From the IMG/VR virus record IMGVR_UViG_3300044645_001737, positions 1 through 21,599 of that record: a stretch of 21,599 bases of DNA, one strand, 5' to 3'. Below, piece after piece: positions 4,204 to 12,695 of this stretch. Position 1 is the first letter of the stretch; each line of letters begins with the position of its first letter. The notes below the pieces were generated by a model, which saw nothing but the letters and a program-made list of their open reading frames with translations, had not been told where the DNA came from and did not search any database. The DNA comes from a virus. The translations under genes and the position numbers were made by a program.

Positions 4204-4701
4204 TTACATGTACCGCAAAGTTGTCATCGATCCATCGGTGGTTGCAAGTGCACCCATCGTGTTACTCGAGCCATATTGCTCGGGATCCATGTACTGTTGT
4301 TGCTGGAAACCAGGGATTCCCATTGCACCAGGTACAGCACCAAGTGCAACACCGCCTAAGCCGGCAGCAAGTGCAGAAGCGGGAACAAGTCCTGCTGCGG
4401 CAGCTTTACCCAAAGCACGGGGATTTACTTTACCTGCTGCTTCTGCGGCATTTAAAAGAACCGCTTGGCGTTTACCGCCTTCACGATTTTTTACCGCAGA
4501 ATTAAGAAGTTTCTCTTGTACATCTTCTGGCATGTATTTACCAGCAAGTGCACGGGCTCCAAGTAAACCAGCAGCACCACCAAGAGCACCAGCAGCGCCA
4601 GCAAGAATTGCAGAGCCTGGATCTTCACCTTGAGAAAGGGCGTACCCACCCGTGGCCAAGCCAGCGGCAATAGGTACGCCTAATTTAAGAGCGCCACGCA
4701 T
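4204..4701 (-). CDS. Gly/Ala-rich protein with hydrophobic helices, between scaffold and capsid
   Basis: The 165-aa protein consists mostly of small residues. Hydrophobic, glycine-zipper-like stretches lie at about residues 5-23, 31-54 (AILAGAAGALGGAAGLLGAR) and 99-128, separated by a charged helical part (60-85). The C-terminal 35 residues are Gln/Met/Tyr-rich (GFQQQQYMDPEQYG). Such composition is common in phage internal proteins that insert into membranes during DNA ejection. The gene begins four bases after the scaffold-like gene stop, so the two are likely translated together. It could alternatively be a morphogenesis factor. There is no cleavable signal peptide. No family recognised. 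Confidence 0.72.
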   Translation of the reverse strand: MRGALKLGVPIAAGLATGGYALSQGEDPGSAILAGAAGALGGAAGLLGARALAGKYMPEDVQEKLLNSAVKNREGGKRQAVLLNAAEAAGKVNPRALGKAAAAGLVPASALAAGLGGVALGAVPGAMGIPGFQQQQYMDPEQYGSSNTMGALATTDGSMTTLRYM

Positions 4702-4705
4702 GGCC

Positions 4706-5707
4706 TCACTCCATCACAAACAGTTTGTTTGCAACAACTTGAGGTTGAGCTTGGTTCAGAAGACGCCAAGCATTCTCAGGACTTACATCCATTTGTTGCT
4801 TAAAGCTGCCCCAGAAGTTTTCAGGCTGTTGGGGAGCAGAAGCAGCGGGAGGTGCAGGAAACTGACCTAAGCTTTGATAAGCAGAAGTCGTGGGATAGCC
4901 ACGGGTTTCCAGTTCCGACTCATCTTCGTACACGGGGTACGGACCTTCGGGACCGAAGAACTTCAGCGTGTAATCGCTGAGCACATCGGGGTTGGTCAGG
5001 ATTTCGTTGTAGGCCAGGTTCTCTTGGTGCTCAGCAACAGAGAAGTCAGCAAAACGATGAAGGACCTCTTGTGCTTTACCGCCCCAAGCAACAGCGCTAT
5101 CCAGCATGGCTTCCAGTTGGAGGCCGTAGTTATTGAGGATGGCGGGTGCGTCCCAGCCGTAAGCGTCAATTACGTTTCGGCTTTCGGGACTTAGGTGCAG
5201 GTAATCGGCGATCGCCGTTTGCACTTCGCTCCGGAGCTCGTTGGCCACTTCCGGGGAGGATGCCGCTAAGGAGATTAGGGAAGAGTTGGGCGAGTAACCC
5301 TGGTTGGGTGACCAGGTCTGCGGAGCCGATTGTTGCGTAGCTGGGTTGCTGTACTGCTGACCGTAATTCGCCGGGGCGTAATCCGTCGTCGGATATGACT
5401 GACCCTGGAACGGGGATTGAACTGGACTGCTCAGCAGACCCACCACTTTGTTGAACGCCGACTCCCATGGGTTGGCCTGAGGGGCCGCCGGTTGGGATTG
5501 GGGGGCGTACTGAGTAGGGGCTGATTGGTAACTGGGGGCCGCTTGAGGCACCGCTTGGGGGTAGCTGGTACCCACCTGATACTGAACCGGCATCCCCATC
5601 GGAGCTTGAGGTGCCGGAGCTTGGGCCGGTACCACGTAGCTGCTTGGAGCCACCGCCACTGGTGATTGGCTCGTCTGTGGGATCGATTGGACGGTAGCGT
5701 CCTGCAT
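4706..5707 (-). CDS. Scaffold-like assembly protein
   Basis: The 333-aa product has a Pro/Gln/Ala-rich, apparently disordered N-terminal part (residues 1-140), a helical, charged central region (about 143-235, including SSPEVANELRSEVQTAIADYL and DFSVAEHQENLAYNEI) and a shorter tail ending KLFVME with an amphipathic helix (ENAWRLLNQAQ). Extended helical proteins encoded between portal and capsid are usually scaffolds, and this one sits exactly there. The start is secure: AGGAG lies seven bases before ATG at 5707-5705. The first 180 codons overlap the end of the portal gene in another frame (the scaffold frame starts on the second base of portal codon 583). The overlapped DNA is visibly G+C-richer than its surroundings. 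Scaffold function is inferred from position and composition. Confidence 0.7.
   Translation of the reverse strand: MQDATVQSIPQTSQSPVAVAPSSYVVPAQAPAPQAPMGMPVQYQVGTSYPQAVPQAAPSYQSAPTQYAPQSQPAAPQANPWESAFNKVVGLLSSPVQSPFQGQSYPTTDYAPANYGQQYSNPATQQSAPQTWSPNQGYSPNSSLISLAASSPEVANELRSEVQTAIADYLHLSPESRNVIDAYGWDAPAILNNYGLQLEAMLDSAVAWGGKAQEVLHRFADFSVAEHQENLAYNEILTNPDVLSDYTLKFFGPEGPYPVYEDESELETRGYPTTSAYQSLGQFPAPPAASAPQQPENFWGSFKQQMDVSPENAWRLLNQAQPQVVANKLFVME
5166..5707 (-). other. Dual-coding region: portal C-terminus and scaffold N-terminus
   Basis: For 542 bases the same strand is open in two frames, offset by one base. One gives portal residues 583-762, a Gly/Ser/Pro/Gln-rich tail ending in a basic cluster (APKSRKPKRN). 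The other gives scaffold-like residues 1-180. Both frames end or begin in clear genes, and the scaffold start has its own strong ribosome site inside the portal gene. The region includes a single GCGATCGC palindrome at 5208-5215. Confidence 0.75.
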
Positions 5708-7454
5708 AACTCATCTCCTTTTGTAGAGCTTCTAATGTTCGATACAGATATGGGGTTAAATCCAATCTTGGATCCGCAGCCATCGGTAAGTCCGGTGCCT
5801 GTGGGTGAGGAGTCTGCATCATGCCCCCCACTAAGCGAGCAAATTGAGAGTAAGCACCCTGCAATTCGTTCACCATCCTGAAAGGGAACCCAGATAACAT
5901 CTCGGCCCTTTCCTCATCCGTCTTAGACGGAAAGAGGTATTTCAGTGCTTCAATGCTATCAACACCTAATTCCTGTAGGTTTCGTACCACGATGGAGTTG
6001 TTGAGGATGTCTTGTGTAGAGTCCTCATAGACAGGGCCCATCCAACGCCATAACACTGTTACGTCACCGTCAGGAATAAGGCCGATAACCTTGGGTGGAA
6101 TTTGTTGTGTCTCCACACAAGCCATCATAAGTTTTTTCAACATCTCGTTGTGTTGCTTCATCGCCTCTTCGTAGGCAGCCTCTTCTTCAGGACTTGCACC
6201 TAAAGCTAAGTCCACTGGCTTCTCAAGGCCGGCTGCCATGGCAAGAGTTGTTTTGAACAACTGCTCTTCTTGGTAGATAATTAACTCAAGACAACGAGAG
6301 ATGCCGTGAGTATAAATTGCGTTTGCTTTCTTTTTAGATGTTGCAGCAACACGACCGAACAAGGATTTGTATTCTGTTGCGGTGACGCCTGCCGAAATTG
6401 AAAGTTCGTCAACACCACCTAAAGCAGTACGAATCTCTTCGCGATACTGACGGGCAAATGCGTTCTGGTCACCTGTGATTGCATCAGGAACGATGTAACC
6501 AACTCGGTCGTTTGGTTCCAGGTTCGCAATAACACGTGGAACTCGGATCTGACCATCTACACCACGACTAACGGGATCAGCCTTAAAGGTTGAACGACTC
6601 AATGCCGCGGGACTTGTAAAGCCAGAGTTAGCAGCGATTGAAGGGCGCTGGACCACGGAGTCACCACCTGCTTCCATCAAGTCCGTCTTGGGACGAGAAG
6701 AAAGAAGGGTAGGGTTACCAAAGAACGTGATGTTTTTGCGCATGGTGCGCATCAATTCATCATGAGTACAGATATGGTTTGCTACTGCGTCAAACTCTCC
6801 GGAACCCTCGTTGGAGAAACCTTGAGTATTGTTGATGATCTCTACGCAGGGAATAAAACCAAGACTATTTTTAAGCTGCTTGGTGCTCCCAGTCAAAGCA
6901 TAGGTAGGCATGTCGAAAGTCATCTCCGAATCGGAGTGAGTCTCTTCAATTTCCTTTGCCTTAATGGACAGACGAATATAACGCTTGGCCCCAGGGTTGT
7001 AAGTGCTTTGCGTTCCCGTAAGATTTGTTGTATTCAGCTGATCACCAAAGCCGTTACCTTTACGAACCTTGTAGCTGTAGATGATTACAACTTCATCCAG
7101 CTCGCCATCAACGTTGTAATAGGCACGATATTCGTGCTCACGAAAATAATAAAGCCTGTAGTTTTGCTTGGTAGGACGGATATAAAAAAGACCTTTGCCA
7201 TCACACAGGAAATATTCCCAGATCGAATCAAGGCGTGTATCTAGTTTGTTGTACTTCAGTACACGGTCCAGGAAGTCTTTGCGTTGTGCACCAAAGTTAT
7301 CCTGAGATGGAAAGAATTCAACTCCTTGGCGGATGCCAAAAAGTTTCATCTGAGCAATGTGGGCTGCGACAATGCTAGTGTCGACGACAACGTTACTATC
7401 CTTGTTGAGATAGGCGTCAATAATTTCGTTAAGTCGTGCCTTAGCGTCAGCCAC
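5166..7454 (-). CDS. Portal protein with long low-complexity C-terminal tail
   Basis: The 762-aa product looks like a tailed-phage portal (the dodecameric DNA channel of the head). Residues 30-130 hold an aromatic, mixed region (IWEYFLCDGKGLFYIRP); the clip/stem-like middle includes EVIDAV-type helices such as EFDAVANHICTHDELMRTM and FGNPTLLSSRP; the later core has YREEIRTALGGVDELS, ATEYKSLFGRV and IPDGDVTVLWRWMGP (459-474) followed by a helical region. The core ends near residue 595. From there the chain is Gly/Ser/Pro-rich and overlaps the scaffold gene. Start GTG at 7454-7452 is supported by GAGGAG five bases upstream. It lies two genes after the AbrB-like gene and close to terL, as expected of a packaging motor partner. 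Exact portal family is not determined. Confidence 0.85.
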   Translation of the reverse strand: MADAKARLNEIIDAYLNKDSNVVVDTSIVAAHIAQMKLFGIRQGVEFFPSQDNFGAQRKDFLDRVLKYNKLDTRLDSIWEYFLCDGKGLFYIRPTKQNYRLYYFREHEYRAYYNVDGELDEVVIIYSYKVRKGNGFGDQLNTTNLTGTQSTYNPGAKRYIRLSIKAKEIEETHSDSEMTFDMPTYALTGSTKQLKNSLGFIPCVEIINNTQGFSNEGSGEFDAVANHICTHDELMRTMRKNITFFGNPTLLSSRPKTDLMEAGGDSVVQRPSIAANSGFTSPAALSRSTFKADPVSRGVDGQIRVPRVIANLEPNDRVGYIVPDAITGDQNAFARQYREEIRTALGGVDELSISAGVTATEYKSLFGRVAATSKKKANAIYTHGISRCLELIIYQEEQLFKTTLAMAAGLEKPVDLALGASPEEEAAYEEAMKQHNEMLKKLMMACVETQQIPPKVIGLIPDGDVTVLWRWMGPVYEDSTQDILNNSIVVRNLQELGVDSIEALKYLFPSKTDEERAEMLSGFPFRMVNELQGAYSQFARLVGGMMQTPHPQAPDLPMAADPRLDLTPYLYRTLEALQKEMSYAGRYRPIDPTDEPITSGGGSKQLRGTGPSSGTSSSDGDAGSVSGGYQLPPSGASSGPQLPISPYSVRPPIPTGGPSGQPMGVGVQQSGGSAEQSSSIPVPGSVISDDGLRPGELRSAVQQPSYATIGSADLVTQPGLLAQLFPNLLSGILPGSGQRAPERSANGDRRLPAPKSRKPKRN

Positions 7455-7489
7455 TATTGCTCCTCTGTTTTATCAATACTAACAGTAAA

Positions 7490-7831
7490 TCAAGAAAGTG
7501 TTTTGCCTTGGAAACCAGCGGGTGGCACCATCTGGCCAAGTTGTGGCCCGGCAAAAAACCCAGCGTTACCCATTGGTGTTCCTGTTGCTCCAGGTACAAA
7601 AGCACCTTGCACACCTCCGCCCATAATCTCACGAAACCGTTGAAGACCTCGCTGCTCTTGAGCTGGCCCCAGAATGCGATTTAATTTCTCCAGTCCCATG
7701 TGATGCTGAAAATCAGCTTGGGACATGGGCAGGCGCGGGTCTTGTCCTACAGGAATGCCGCCAGCGAGTAACCCGCCGGGATTTAAGTTGCCAGGTGCCC
7801 CAGGAACGTTGCTTTCACCTGCGAAATACAT
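7490..7831 (-). CDS. Unidentified Gly/Pro-rich 113-aa protein
   Basis: The ATG at 7831 has AAGGA seven bases upstream, and the gene ends 35 bases before the portal start. The protein has Gly/Pro-rich ends (NVPGAPGNLNPGGLLAGG and PQLGQMVPPAGFQGK) around a short helical middle (residues about 37-70: SQADFQHHMGLEKLNRI, then EQRGLQRFREIMGGG). There is no signal peptide or obvious membrane helix. Low-complexity flanks of this sort are common in small structural or assembly factors. Its position directly ahead of the portal gene suggests a role in head assembly, without direct evidence. I recognise no family. Confidence 0.65.
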   Translation of the reverse strand: MYFAGESNVPGAPGNLNPGGLLAGGIPVGQDPRLPMSQADFQHHMGLEKLNRILGPAQEQRGLQRFREIMGGGVQGAFVPGATGTPMGNAGFFAGPQLGQMVPPAGFQGKTLS

Positions 7832-8359: not shown

Positions 8360-9886
8360 TCAATAATCAAGTTGAAGTTTGCCTTTACGCATCAGGCCAT
8401 TGATGAGCCACACAAGAGCGTCAACGCAGTCATCATGACTGCTGACACCAAAGTTAGTCATTTCTTCAAACATTGCAGTGAAGTTCCGGAAACGATTGAA
8501 GATAATTTTGCGATCTTCAAACATACCCATACAACCACGGAATCGAGCCAGTTTATCTGCTCGGAAACCTTTAACGGCATGCCAGTTAATGTTGTACAAG
8601 TTCTCACCGTTTAAGCAAACACGTTTAAAGTCAGCCTCCAAAGATGCCTGGTACTGTACGGCTTCTGAGTAAATGTCGCACGTTGAGTAGGTCGGAAAGT
8701 AATTACCGTTCTGATCACAACCCAAGATTGACCAATCATTGAGAAGTTCTTTGAGTGCATCTAGTTTTTCTAGGTTGCCCATCACGCGAATACGTCTGTA
8801 ATCAATAATGTGAATACTGTCGCCAATGCGTCCGCCAAGAACCATCACCGTGTAATCATTCTTTTCTTTGGTGCCAGCAGATAGATCGACCCCTACAGCA
8901 AGGGTGTCAAACTCCGTTGCAATCTCAGCCTTTACAATTAACTCTGGTGCCAGGGAGAGTTCATTCTGTCGAACCACCTGGTTCATGTACTGGAAAGAGA
9001 AAGCAATTGGTGCTTGTCGTTTCTTTTCCTTTAGGTAGTCCAGTGACCACATATCTGGCCAGTACGAGATCTCGTCCCCTGTCTTGGCATCATTCAAGAT
9101 TGCCGACAACACAATCTGCATCCAGTTGTTTTGCGGGTTGAATGTTGTTGAGTGAATGTCATCATGTCGGAAGCGGGTGCCAAGGCAGATGGCACGTGCT
9201 CCTTCAAACATGGTTGGTGCGATCACAGCATTCCAGTTGTCCTGCATCTGTTTACGGATGTCAGGGTTGGAAATGTCTGCCGCAGATTTAATGGCGTCAT
9301 CGATGATGACTAGGTGAGAACGCTTAGAGGTCACTGAGCCTTTAAGACCTGCCGCACACAGTGTGAACTGTTCTTCACCAGTGGTATCAATAGAAGCAAA
9401 CTTGTGATCAATAGACCAGTACTCATTACTGGTAACGTTCTTGAGAAGACGTACCTTCGGGAAGACCTCCTGGTACCGCTTGCTTTCAATGATTCGTTTA
9501 ATGGTTGCAGACTTGGAACGTGCGATATCAACCGTATAGGACAAGTAAAGAATCTGTAGTGGCATCTTGGCCATGGTGTGCACACCAATAGCCCATGCAG
9601 TAAACAGACCTAAGACTGTGGACTTGGCGGAACCACGAGGCGCAAGTAGGTCTACGTTGGGGCCAGCAATTTTAATGAGACAGCTACTGTCCTCATTAGT
9701 CACAAAGTGACGATGCCATTCTTTATGGTGTTCTGCCGGTGGCTTATCAGCTACGTAATCACAGAAGAAACCAAAATCGTCCCTTGCTTTCTGTAGCGTC
9801 TCAAGGTTGCGGGGGACACGAATTTGTTGCCGGCGGGCAGCAGCTTGTGCGTTGCGTCGATATGCAAGATGCTGATATGCAGGCAC
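8360..9886 (-). CDS. terL: Terminase large subunit
   Basis: The 508-aa protein has both parts of a large terminase, the ATPase and nuclease of the DNA-packaging motor. The ATPase shows a Walker A motif APRGSAKST (residues 82-90), Walker B LVIIDDAI (192-199) and a coupling motif LGTRF (235-239). The nuclease domain shows VGVDLS with Asp334 and SSHDDCVDALVW with Asp485, Asp486 and Asp489, an RNase H-like metal site. Length is normal for the family. The GTG at 9886 is the only usable start, because the frame has a stop 15 to 17 bases upstream and only ATA, ATA, CCG and ATC between; no Shine-Dalgarno is seen, and a hairpin lies just ahead. A candidate small terminase is encoded two genes upstream. 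Confidence 0.95.
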   Translation of the reverse strand: MPAYQHLAYRRNAQAAARRQQIRVPRNLETLQKARDDFGFFCDYVADKPPAEHHKEWHRHFVTNEDSSCLIKIAGPNVDLLAPRGSAKSTVLGLFTAWAIGVHTMAKMPLQILYLSYTVDIARSKSATIKRIIESKRYQEVFPKVRLLKNVTSNEYWSIDHKFASIDTTGEEQFTLCAAGLKGSVTSKRSHLVIIDDAIKSAADISNPDIRKQMQDNWNAVIAPTMFEGARAICLGTRFRHDDIHSTTFNPQNNWMQIVLSAILNDAKTGDEISYWPDMWSLDYLKEKKRQAPIAFSFQYMNQVVRQNELSLAPELIVKAEIATEFDTLAVGVDLSAGTKEKNDYTVMVLGGRIGDSIHIIDYRRIRVMGNLEKLDALKELLNDWSILGCDQNGNYFPTYSTCDIYSEAVQYQASLEADFKRVCLNGENLYNINWHAVKGFRADKLARFRGCMGMFEDRKIIFNRFRNFTAMFEEMTNFGVSSHDDCVDALVWLINGLMRKGKLQLDY

Positions 9887-11546: not shown

Positions 11547-12287
11547 TTAAAAGTTGAACATACTAGTGATGTTGCCCATCATTTTAGATCCGCGCTCTAC
11601 TCGAGAAATCTGAGTGTATCCTGCATTAACAATTTTTTGCAAGTCAAGTTTCCCGCTGATTTCCGTTTGTAACAGTGGCTTTTTATTGTCTTCTATGTAT
11701 TTTGTGCGCTCAGTTTCTCCAGCTTGTTGGAGCTGGACAATTTGTAATTGAGTTTGTAAATTTGCGCCTTCTTGTGCTGCGTCAAATGTAGACTGCGGAA
11801 CATATCCCTCTGGGATTTCGTAGCCGCCATTGTTGTAGCCACCACCCCAGTTATTTAAAGTGTCAGTGAAATCATTTAAAAAATCTGAAGGGTCCCAGTT
11901 GCTTCCACCGCCTCCTCCTCCACCACCACCGCCACCCGACATTCCACCACCACCGCCACCTGACATTCCTCCACCACTACTTCCACCACCACCTGACATT
12001 CCTCCACCGCCACCGCCGCCGCCGCCGCCGGACATTCCTCCACCACTACTTCCACCGCCACCTGACATTCCTCCACCGCCACCGCCACCTGACATTCCTC
12101 CACCACTATTTCCACCGCCTACGTAAGGTGCGTACCAAGGCTGGGAACCGCCACCGCCACCGCCGCCACCGCCGCCACCGCCGCCACCGCCGCCACCGCC
12201 GCCTGACATTCCTCCACCGCCACCGGACATTCCGCCGCCACCGCCACCATCGCCCATTCCACCGCCGCCGCCCATTCCCATTGACAT
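11547..12287 (-). CDS. Glycine-repeat protein with MSGGGG units
   Basis: The 246-aa product has an N-terminal half (residues 1-130) that is almost only Gly, Met and Ser, with eight MSGGG units, one glycine run of about 19 and a single interruption around SQPWYAPYVGG. The C-terminal part (about 130-246) is ordinary: an acidic/aromatic segment (NWDPSDFLNDFTDTLNNWGGG) and a helical Gln/Leu region (LQTQLQIVQLQQAGETERTKY). The start has a strong ribosome site, AAGGAGA seven bases before ATG, which overlaps the stop of the SET gene. The repeat half is probably flexible, as in fibre-linking or surface proteins; the function is not known. The antisense strand reads as polyproline and is a shadow. Confidence 0.72.
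   Translation of the reverse strand: MSMGMGGGGGMGDGGGGGGMSGGGGGMSGGGGGGGGGGGGGGGGGGGSQPWYAPYVGGGNSGGGMSGGGGGGGMSGGGGSSGGGMSGGGGGGGGGGMSGGGGSSGGGMSGGGGGGMSGGGGGGGGGGGSNWDPSDFLNDFTDTLNNWGGGYNNGGYEIPEGYVPQSTFDAAQEGANLQTQLQIVQLQQAGETERTKYIEDNKKPLLQTEISGKLDLQKIVNAGYTQISRVERGSKMMGNITSMFNF
11904..12287. repeat. GGN/CCN trinucleotide-rich repeat array with 60-69 base units
   Basis: The DNA for the glycine half of the protein is a CCN-type array on the plus strand. A 29-base unit starting GACATTCCTCCACCACTA recurs at 11962, 12031 and 12091 (spacings of 69 and 60 bases, both multiples of three) with one or two changes. Separating runs are simple CCG/CCA triplets. The structure is in-frame and prone to slippage or unequal exchange. 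Confidence 0.85.
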
Positions 12288-12299
12288 TTGTAAATCTCC

Positions 12300-12695
12300 T
12301 TAATTTAAAACAAAACGATCCACGTTATTTTTTCCATAGTCAAGAGTAATTTCTTGATCTGCTTCTATCTGCAAAATTGAATAGTGGCGAATAACCTGAT
12401 TCACATAGTCAATTTCATAAGAAGCATTTGGAATCCCACTATGGTTATACAATCCAGCATAACCCATCCCTATCAACTGACTGTTATCAGTCAACCAATA
12501 AGAATAGCGCTCACACTCGGGAGCGTTTTCAATTTGAGAGTCAGGCACCTCAAAATAAGGAGACTCCTCTAGTAAATCGTGTTTATTGATTTGCTCTTTA
12601 GCAAAAACACCCCAGCGATGAACGTCCGATCGTCTAATTTCTAAAGCTGGATTTTTGCGTAATGTTGCTTTAGCAAGAGAAAAATCTTCCGGCAT
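12300..12695 (-). CDS. SET-domain protein (putative protein lysine methyltransferase)
   Basis: The 131-aa protein is a compact SET domain. It shows the N-terminal glycine motif HRWGVFAKE (residues 26-34), the SAM-pocket and catalytic-fold signature YNHSGIPNASYEI (83-95, with Asn84-His85-Ser86) and EITLDYG (115-121, with Tyr120). SET enzymes methylate protein lysines using S-adenosylmethionine. There is no post-SET cysteine cluster, and the size is near that of minimal viral SET proteins such as the roughly 120-residue chlorovirus enzyme. A candidate promoter (12748-12720) lies just upstream, while no Shine-Dalgarno is seen. The gene sits between an internal-virion-like block and the glycine-repeat gene. 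Substrate unknown: a phage or host Lys-rich protein is possible. Fold assignment is firm; activity is inferred. Confidence 0.85.
   Translation of the reverse strand: MPEDFSLAKATLRKNPALEIRRSDVHRWGVFAKEQINKHDLLEESPYFEVPDSQIENAPECERYSYWLTDNSQLIGMGYAGLYNHSGIPNASYEIDYVNQVIRHYSILQIEADQEITLDYGKNNVDRFVLN

Follow-up and report, generated by a model that had tools for sequence, protein, structure and literature searches.

A conserved out-of-frame overlap between the portal gene and a scaffold-like gene in relatives of Synechococcus phage S-EIV1: probable dual coding behind a constrained upstream segment

In the DNA analysed here (the window, i.e. the whole 21,599-nt stretch of IMG/VR virus record IMGVR_UViG_3300044645_001737), the portal ORF (5166-7454, minus strand) and a scaffold-like ORF (4706-5707, minus strand) share 542 nt, the portal stop codon included, with an offset of one base. 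A sequence-only reading had pointed to this out-of-frame overlap, and both the ORF coordinates and the phase bear it out. The overlap (5166-5707) is, we consider with good confidence, a case of genuine and long-maintained dual coding in S-EIV1-like cyanophages. To judge from its sequence, the window is a fragment of a phage related to Synechococcus phage S-EIV1, and the virus group, which is widespread, probably has cyanobacteria as hosts. The features on which the argument turns are the following.

8360-9886, minus strand: terminase large subunit gene (phrog_38, E 2e-75; Pfam Terminase_6C)
5166-7454, minus strand: portal gene, 762 aa, GTG start; core residues 1-582, tail residues 583-762 predicted to be mostly disordered
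5709-5987, minus strand: nucleotide-constrained element, portal codons 490-582, the ~280 nt upstream of the scaffold start
5941-5966, minus strand: 26-nt block in this element, portal codons 497-505, with synonymous sites conserved between clades
5715-5722, minus strand: Shine-Dalgarno (SD) sequence of the scaffold-like gene, AAAAGGAG, 7 nt before its ATG (5705-5707)
5166-5707, minus strand: probable dual-coding overlap in +1 phase, present in 278 of 278 testable sequences, with selection in both frames
4706-5707, minus strand: scaffold-like gene, 333 aa, with its ATG inside the portal gene, lying between portal and major head protein
4204-4701, minus strand: Gly/Ala-rich ORF of 165 aa
2941-4107, minus strand: major head protein gene (phrog_1357, E 2e-16)

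The head genes thus run on the minus strand in the order terminase, portal, scaffold-like gene, 165-aa ORF and major head protein. Among 50,697 phage records searched, S-EIV1 (KJ410740) is the sole relative of the portal and the scaffold-like protein (71.7% and 64.3% identity to the window, respectively); the same search found S-EIV1 plus three weak partial matches for the head protein, and 83 records for the terminase. The S-EIV1 terminase large subunit (L081:2538-5078) carries an intein at residues 202-526 (Pfam Intein_splicing, E 1e-11) that was not found in the 508-aa terminase of the window. Elsewhere in the window, amid uncharacterised phage ORFs, lie a 131-aa SET-domain protein (12300-12695, minus strand; Pfam E 2e-9) and a 246-aa ORF (11547-12287, minus strand) whose N-terminal half consists mostly of Gly/Ser/Met repeats.

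The portal matches phrog_20475 (virion structural protein, E 7e-280) and phrog_64 (portal, E 1e-4), and a sequence search of the PDB gave no match at E <= 1. Its predicted model is poor (pLDDT 47), and has no structure past about residue 585 except for short helices at 712-732. A Foldseek search of the PDB with this model nevertheless returned 20 matches at E <= 0.001, all 20 of them portals or portal/tail complexes, and the best VIA-align superposition was to a portal (Z 9.8, rmsd 6.4 Å over 192 residues, model range about 52-473). The identification as a portal is thus supported by the predicted fold. The scaffold-like protein is a different matter. Its AF2 model (pLDDT 60) has residues 1-76 and 94-144 below pLDDT 50 and predicted helices at 80-93, 187-238 (a long one) and 298-332 (C-terminal). 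It had no Pfam match at E <= 0.001, a single PHROG match (16 residues, E 0.17) and no matching chain in a fold search of the PDB, and the search of BFVD returned solely A0A0C4K645, a protein of 133 aa with 74% identity, whose length would fit the scaffold fragment annotated in S-EIV1. A disordered arm, a long helix and C-terminal helices are also found in known scaffolds, and it is by gene order and by this predicted architecture, helical with a disordered arm, that the protein looks like one.

How well the overlap is kept was assessed in relatives collected by scanning viral contigs with the window portal, the S-EIV1 portal, a portal-core alignment and the core of a distant relative (L164), each of these scans being limited to its 80 closest relatives, and by one further scan of genome contigs with the portal-core alignment. 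Two of these scans used whole portals and therefore favour intact tails; the other three used the portal core only. In total, at least 316 loci (the S-EIV1 record among them) were gathered, 317 sequences with the window. In 21 of the 317 no scaffold match was present, their contigs breaking off short of the portal core's end or at most about 100 nt past it, and 18 more stop short of the portal stop codon, which leaves 278 testable sequences; both genes are complete in 238 of them. Nine contigs (L174, L186, L194, L222, L229, L232, L239, L265 and L278) end within 100 nt past the portal core, as might be expected if a locally conserved segment breaks assemblies. Clade A comprises 213 of the testable sequences, the window and S-EIV1 among them, and clade B the other 65; no relative outside both was among those found, and the mean portal-core identity between the clades is 59% (351 representative pairs). 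For several analyses we used 48 representatives at <90% portal identity (39 of clade A and 9 of clade B), S-EIV1 being left out.

In all 278 testable sequences the scaffold-like gene starts with ATG in +1 phase and both frames are open, with an overlap of 518-656 nt; 190 overlap sequences are distinct, and this is the safer count because some contigs were fetched more than once. A portal that stops near codon 595, or an indel artefact that extends the portal frame, would have spoken against the sequence-only reading; neither was seen in any of the 278. The portal gene of one clade B relative (L165:5989-8390) is split into ORFs of 332 and 453 aa, the interruption lying in the core. G+C content is 0.57-0.59 in 500-nt windows mostly within the overlap vs 0.42-0.50 across most of the portal core. 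Synonymous resampling of portal codons kept the +1 frame free of stops in 398 or 1343 of 20,000 draws with the window and in 5415 or 6837 of 20,000 with the clade B sequence L267, the paired counts coming from two codon-usage sources. Openness of the scaffold frame alone is therefore weak evidence, since 2-34% of such portal-fixed resamplings are also open. Its retention across relatives is what makes chance untenable.

S-EIV1 itself has the same gene order and both ORFs, with an overlap of 554 nt (scaffold match from 59287, portal CDS to 59840), but its GenBank record annotates just the 3' 402 nt of the scaffold gene (59863-60264), so that the overlap is invisible there. The S-EIV1 major head protein (match at 60859-62007 in KJ410740.1) also lacks a whole annotation, an opposite-strand ORF (60784-61545) and a 3' fragment (61540-62010) being called instead.

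Selection in the two frames was measured in sequence pairs of 4-25% core divergence in which each sequence was used once (78 pairs in a first run, then 90 in clade A and 24 in clade B), with every change classed according to what it does in either frame. In the clade A overlap, changes that are silent in the scaffold and alter the portal are the fastest (0.17), followed by those that are silent in the portal and alter the scaffold (0.095) and by those that change both (0.034), while the same three classes in the portal core, read with a pretended +1 frame, have rates of 0.049, 0.75 and 0.033. The fast class is thus portal-silent in the core and switches to scaffold-silent in the overlap. From core to overlap, the portal-silent rate falls from 0.75 to 0.095 in clade A and from 1.18 to 0.13 in clade B. 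Codon positions behave in the same way. Differences at portal positions 1/2/3 go from 0.066/0.028/0.357 in the core to 0.122/0.038/0.083 in the overlap in clade A, and from 0.071/0.033/0.446 to 0.126/0.044/0.110 in clade B, where the lead of position 1 is small. Within clades the most variable position of the overlap is therefore portal position 1, which is scaffold position 3; between clades portal position 3 is slightly above position 1 (0.477 vs 0.442). Fourfold-degenerate sites of the scaffold frame likewise speed up past about residue 180, where the portal ends, from 0.13 to 0.28 differences in clade A and from 0.14 to 0.42 in clade B.

The omega values in the overlap are 0.35 [0.26-0.47] for the portal and 0.19 [0.14-0.27] for the scaffold in clade A, 0.36 and 0.24 in clade B, and 0.39 and 0.24 in the first run of 78 pairs. 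The scaffold omega alone is not proof of coding, because the ratio of both-changing to scaffold-silent rates is below 1 even where the frame is merely pretended: 0.68 (A) and 0.63 (B) in the portal core, which has no scaffold frame, and 0.33 (A) and 0.19 (B), on few changes, in the upstream element. As far as sequence comparison goes, it is the reversed order of the change classes, together with that of the codon positions, which proves scaffold coding, and a scaffold frame unbroken in all 278 sequences rounds off the argument that both frames are coding and kept. The class of changes silent in both frames is tiny, and the clades disagree on it (saturated on 194 sites in A, 0.31 on 55 sites in B). 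Conserved residues show no general separation between the frames, conservation in one being positively correlated with that in the other (Spearman 0.40). The test of synonymous sites in each frame that the sequence-only reading had recommended thus finds both frames constrained and under purifying selection.

The sequence-only reading had also suggested that one of the two tails was overprinted on the other. In its raw form, codon usage favours an older portal frame, being closer there to that of the genome in 39 of 39 clade A and 9 of 9 clade B representatives. A geometry control removes most of this signal: much of the offset also arises when frames are pretended in single-coding DNA, and both frames come out near-equally displaced. 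The idea of an older portal frame was dropped.

An unexpected result, absent from the sequence-only reading, is that constraint on the portal gene extends upstream of the overlap. Across codons 491-580, fourfold third sites differ at 354 of 3556 comparisons in clade A (0.10) and at 90 of 973 in clade B (0.09), with single bins at 0.03-0.16 and 0.01-0.26, respectively, against reference values of 0.37-0.43 (A) and 0.44-0.62 (B) per 60-codon window in codons 61-480. The strongest conservation between clades is in the 26-nt block, where codons 497-504 show 6 synonymous changes vs 46.4 expected (9 A x B pairs); at up to 3 mismatches this block has one site in the window. In the same 9 pairs the rest of the element has mostly diverged between clades, with weaker conservation at codons 553-560 and in the SD region. 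A hidden second ORF was considered and rejected, the alternative frames carrying stops in codons 490-580 in the 48 representatives, with the exception of one antisense frame that is open across the element in 6 of 39 clade A and 0 of 9 clade B representatives. A sweep or gene conversion is not favoured either, since divergence in the element tracks upstream divergence (Spearman 0.79 in A and 0.47 in B) and the 59 kb of S-EIV1 that were read hold no second copy. High expression or codon bias was set aside because 30-codon bins of TerL (0.27-0.47 in A, 0.40-0.63 in B) and of the head protein (0.19-0.34 in A, 0.18-0.40 in B) exceed the whole-element values of 0.10 and 0.09, although single clade B bins of the element reach 0.18-0.26 and lie inside the head protein range.

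The synonymous constraint at 5709-5987 suggests an RNA or DNA element, and folding hints at RNA structure. Single-sequence folding against codon-shuffled controls gave mean z-scores, from related sequences and hence not independent, of -1.9 (codons 531-577) and -2.6 (538-584) in clade A, and of -2.6 (484-530) and -3.3 (531-577) in clade B; the window's own element has a z of -2.2. For clade A codons 484-530 the value is no lower than -1.2, which some upstream windows match (down to -1.3), and one upstream clade B window (codons 437-483) reaches -2.5. No single conserved RNA structure was found in clade A, consensus energies being low in 70 sequences. Rfam gave 0 matches at E <= 1 in region 4600-7700, and a promoter scan found no site in 5709-5987. 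A weaker step is that the element probably acts in cis on scaffold translation, at the level of internal initiation.

The start of the scaffold-like gene is among the best conserved parts of the locus. Its 24-nt context, TACAAAAGGAGATGAGTTATGCAG, is identical in 209 of 213 clade A sequences, and in clade B TACAAAAAGAGGTAACTTATGCAG and a one-base variant account for 64 of 65. Pairing with the anti-SD is predicted at -8.9 kcal/mol in all 39 clade A representatives and at -7.1 in all 9 of clade B, while the portal has medians of -4.0 (38 A, range -8.2 to 0) and -0.5 (9 B). The strong ribosome site that had been noticed inside the portal gene is near-invariant within each clade. The portal start and its ribosome site vary among relatives, clade B having ATG with weak SDs, and the contrast between the two genes is a trend rather than a rule because the window's own portal start (7452-7470) is a GTG with a good SD, AGAGGAG. 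The scaffold frame has a stop two codons ahead of the ATG in all 278 sequences (TGA in A, TAA in B). With this in-frame stop and an SD and ATG of its own, nothing in the 278 start contexts supports a portal-scaffold frameshift fusion, nor the shifted portal product by which the sequence-only reading had imagined the two head-assembly partners being joined. Stop-start coupling or reinitiation is excluded because the portal stop lies ~540 nt downstream of the scaffold start, and occlusion of the SD is not supported, roughly half of it being unpaired in either clade (0.55 and 0.61). Scaffold translation is thus most likely a matter of independent internal initiation.

These observations outline a model in which the portal frame would encode a mostly disordered C-terminal tail and the +1 frame the N-terminal arm of the scaffold-like protein, likewise mostly disordered. 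Scaffold translation would begin separately, at the strong SD that lies within the portal gene and hardly varies within a clade, and the portal would use its own ribosome site, variable and weaker at the median, the outcome being little portal and much scaffold from one mRNA, with both nucleation partners made at the same place. The 280-nt upstream segment would act in cis on internal initiation. In P22, the portal crown extends to residue 600, the C-terminal barrel that follows (601-725) lacks ordered structure in the procapsid, and a portal-scaffold nucleation complex has been proposed by the authors of that work (PMC12005531). By analogy, the tail described here would sit at the position equivalent to the P22 barrel and would project into the procapsid interior, towards the scaffold. 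We infer the expression of both products, their stoichiometry, the scaffold function and the role of the upstream element. Only tentatively do we propose that the 820-nt unit (the 280-nt element plus the 540-nt overlap) is a translation-control module in which a cis-acting RNA governs the internal scaffold start.

Dual coding has to be weighed against two readings in which one of the frames is not used in full. It is very improbable, in our view, that only the scaffold frame is fully translated, while recoding or processing ends the portal near codon 585 and the tail frame is passively open. Scaffold coding by itself would slow portal-silent sites, the tail is mostly disordered in the model, and the matched solved portal chains are mostly of 390-570 residues (657-705 in phicrAss001), all of which would agree with a short portal. 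However, synonymous resampling of scaffold codons leaves the portal frame open in 13 (window) and 21 (L267) of 20,000 draws, about 0.1%, yet it is open in 278 of 278 sequences. Moreover, scaffold-silent fourfold sites are two- to threefold slower in the overlap than in the scaffold-only part, and a portal tail motif, QPG...QLFPN (residues 717-727), is conserved where the scaffold frame is mostly variable. Still further from probable is a constraint at the nucleotide level over the whole portal 3' region, the scaffold starting after the portal stop as in the S-EIV1 annotation. Constraint does reach 280 nt upstream, where no second frame is open, but there portal third positions still vary most (0.026/0.006/0.089 in clade A), whereas in the overlap position 1 does. 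The near-invariant SD and ATG of the scaffold start also tell against it, as does a scaffold frame that is unbroken in 278 of 278 sequences when the third frame has 2-11 stops across the overlap in 48 of 48 representatives.

Two other alternatives concern the scaffold-like protein and the upstream element. A different role in the head for the 333-aa protein, not that of a scaffold, would fit the want of a family match at a meaningful E-value and of a fold match to a named scaffold; we think this unlikely, given a gene that sits between portal and major head protein and a predicted architecture, with its disordered arm, long helix and C-terminal helices, like that of known scaffolds. The upstream constraint might instead mark a DNA site, for packaging or recombination, unrelated to scaffold expression, and this has appreciable plausibility, short of an even chance. 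It would be consistent with the lack of a common structure in clade A (alifold z -0.8, 39 sequences), with a short block conserved across clades and with the absence of a known RNA family. On the other hand, the element adjoins the internal SD, its single-sequence folding is unusually stable, the alifold z in clade B is -3.9 (9 sequences), and no second copy was found in 59 of the 79 kb of S-EIV1.

Scaffolds that start internally within another head gene are familiar from lambda C/Nu3 and herpesvirus UL26/UL26.5, where the scaffold gene is nested in frame and its product is the C-terminal part of the longer protein. In the present case the frame is shifted, +1 in 278 of 278 sequences and never nested in frame, and portal and scaffold have no common sequence. 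Long same-strand, overprinted genes are a known kind in viruses, as reviewed in PMC8227390, and share with the overlap described here the use of two phases of one stretch, both under purifying selection. What differs here is the partners, a portal gene and a scaffold-like gene in a tailed dsDNA phage, and the arrangement, in which one long gene ends within the beginning of another. The likeness to P22 lies in a portal C-terminal extension that is unstructured in the procapsid and in the proposed nucleation complex, the difference in an extension that is here of low complexity and coded over the scaffold gene, no overlap being mentioned in the P22 text consulted (PMC12005531). No description of a portal/scaffold overlap, in general or in S-EIV1, was found in the literature searched, which covered few subscription papers.

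For tailed phages it has long been asked how few portal and many scaffold subunits give one portal per head. In the widespread phage group described here, even diverged members have the two genes locked in different frames, and, as the S-EIV1 record illustrates, more than half of a head gene can go unnoticed in ordinary gene calling. The constrained 280-nt segment adds a concrete candidate for a control element. Since the internal start is near-invariant within clades and the genes are locked together, the dosage idea is directly testable. If it is true, the module would set the portal:scaffold ratio, and hence one portal per head, on a single mRNA.
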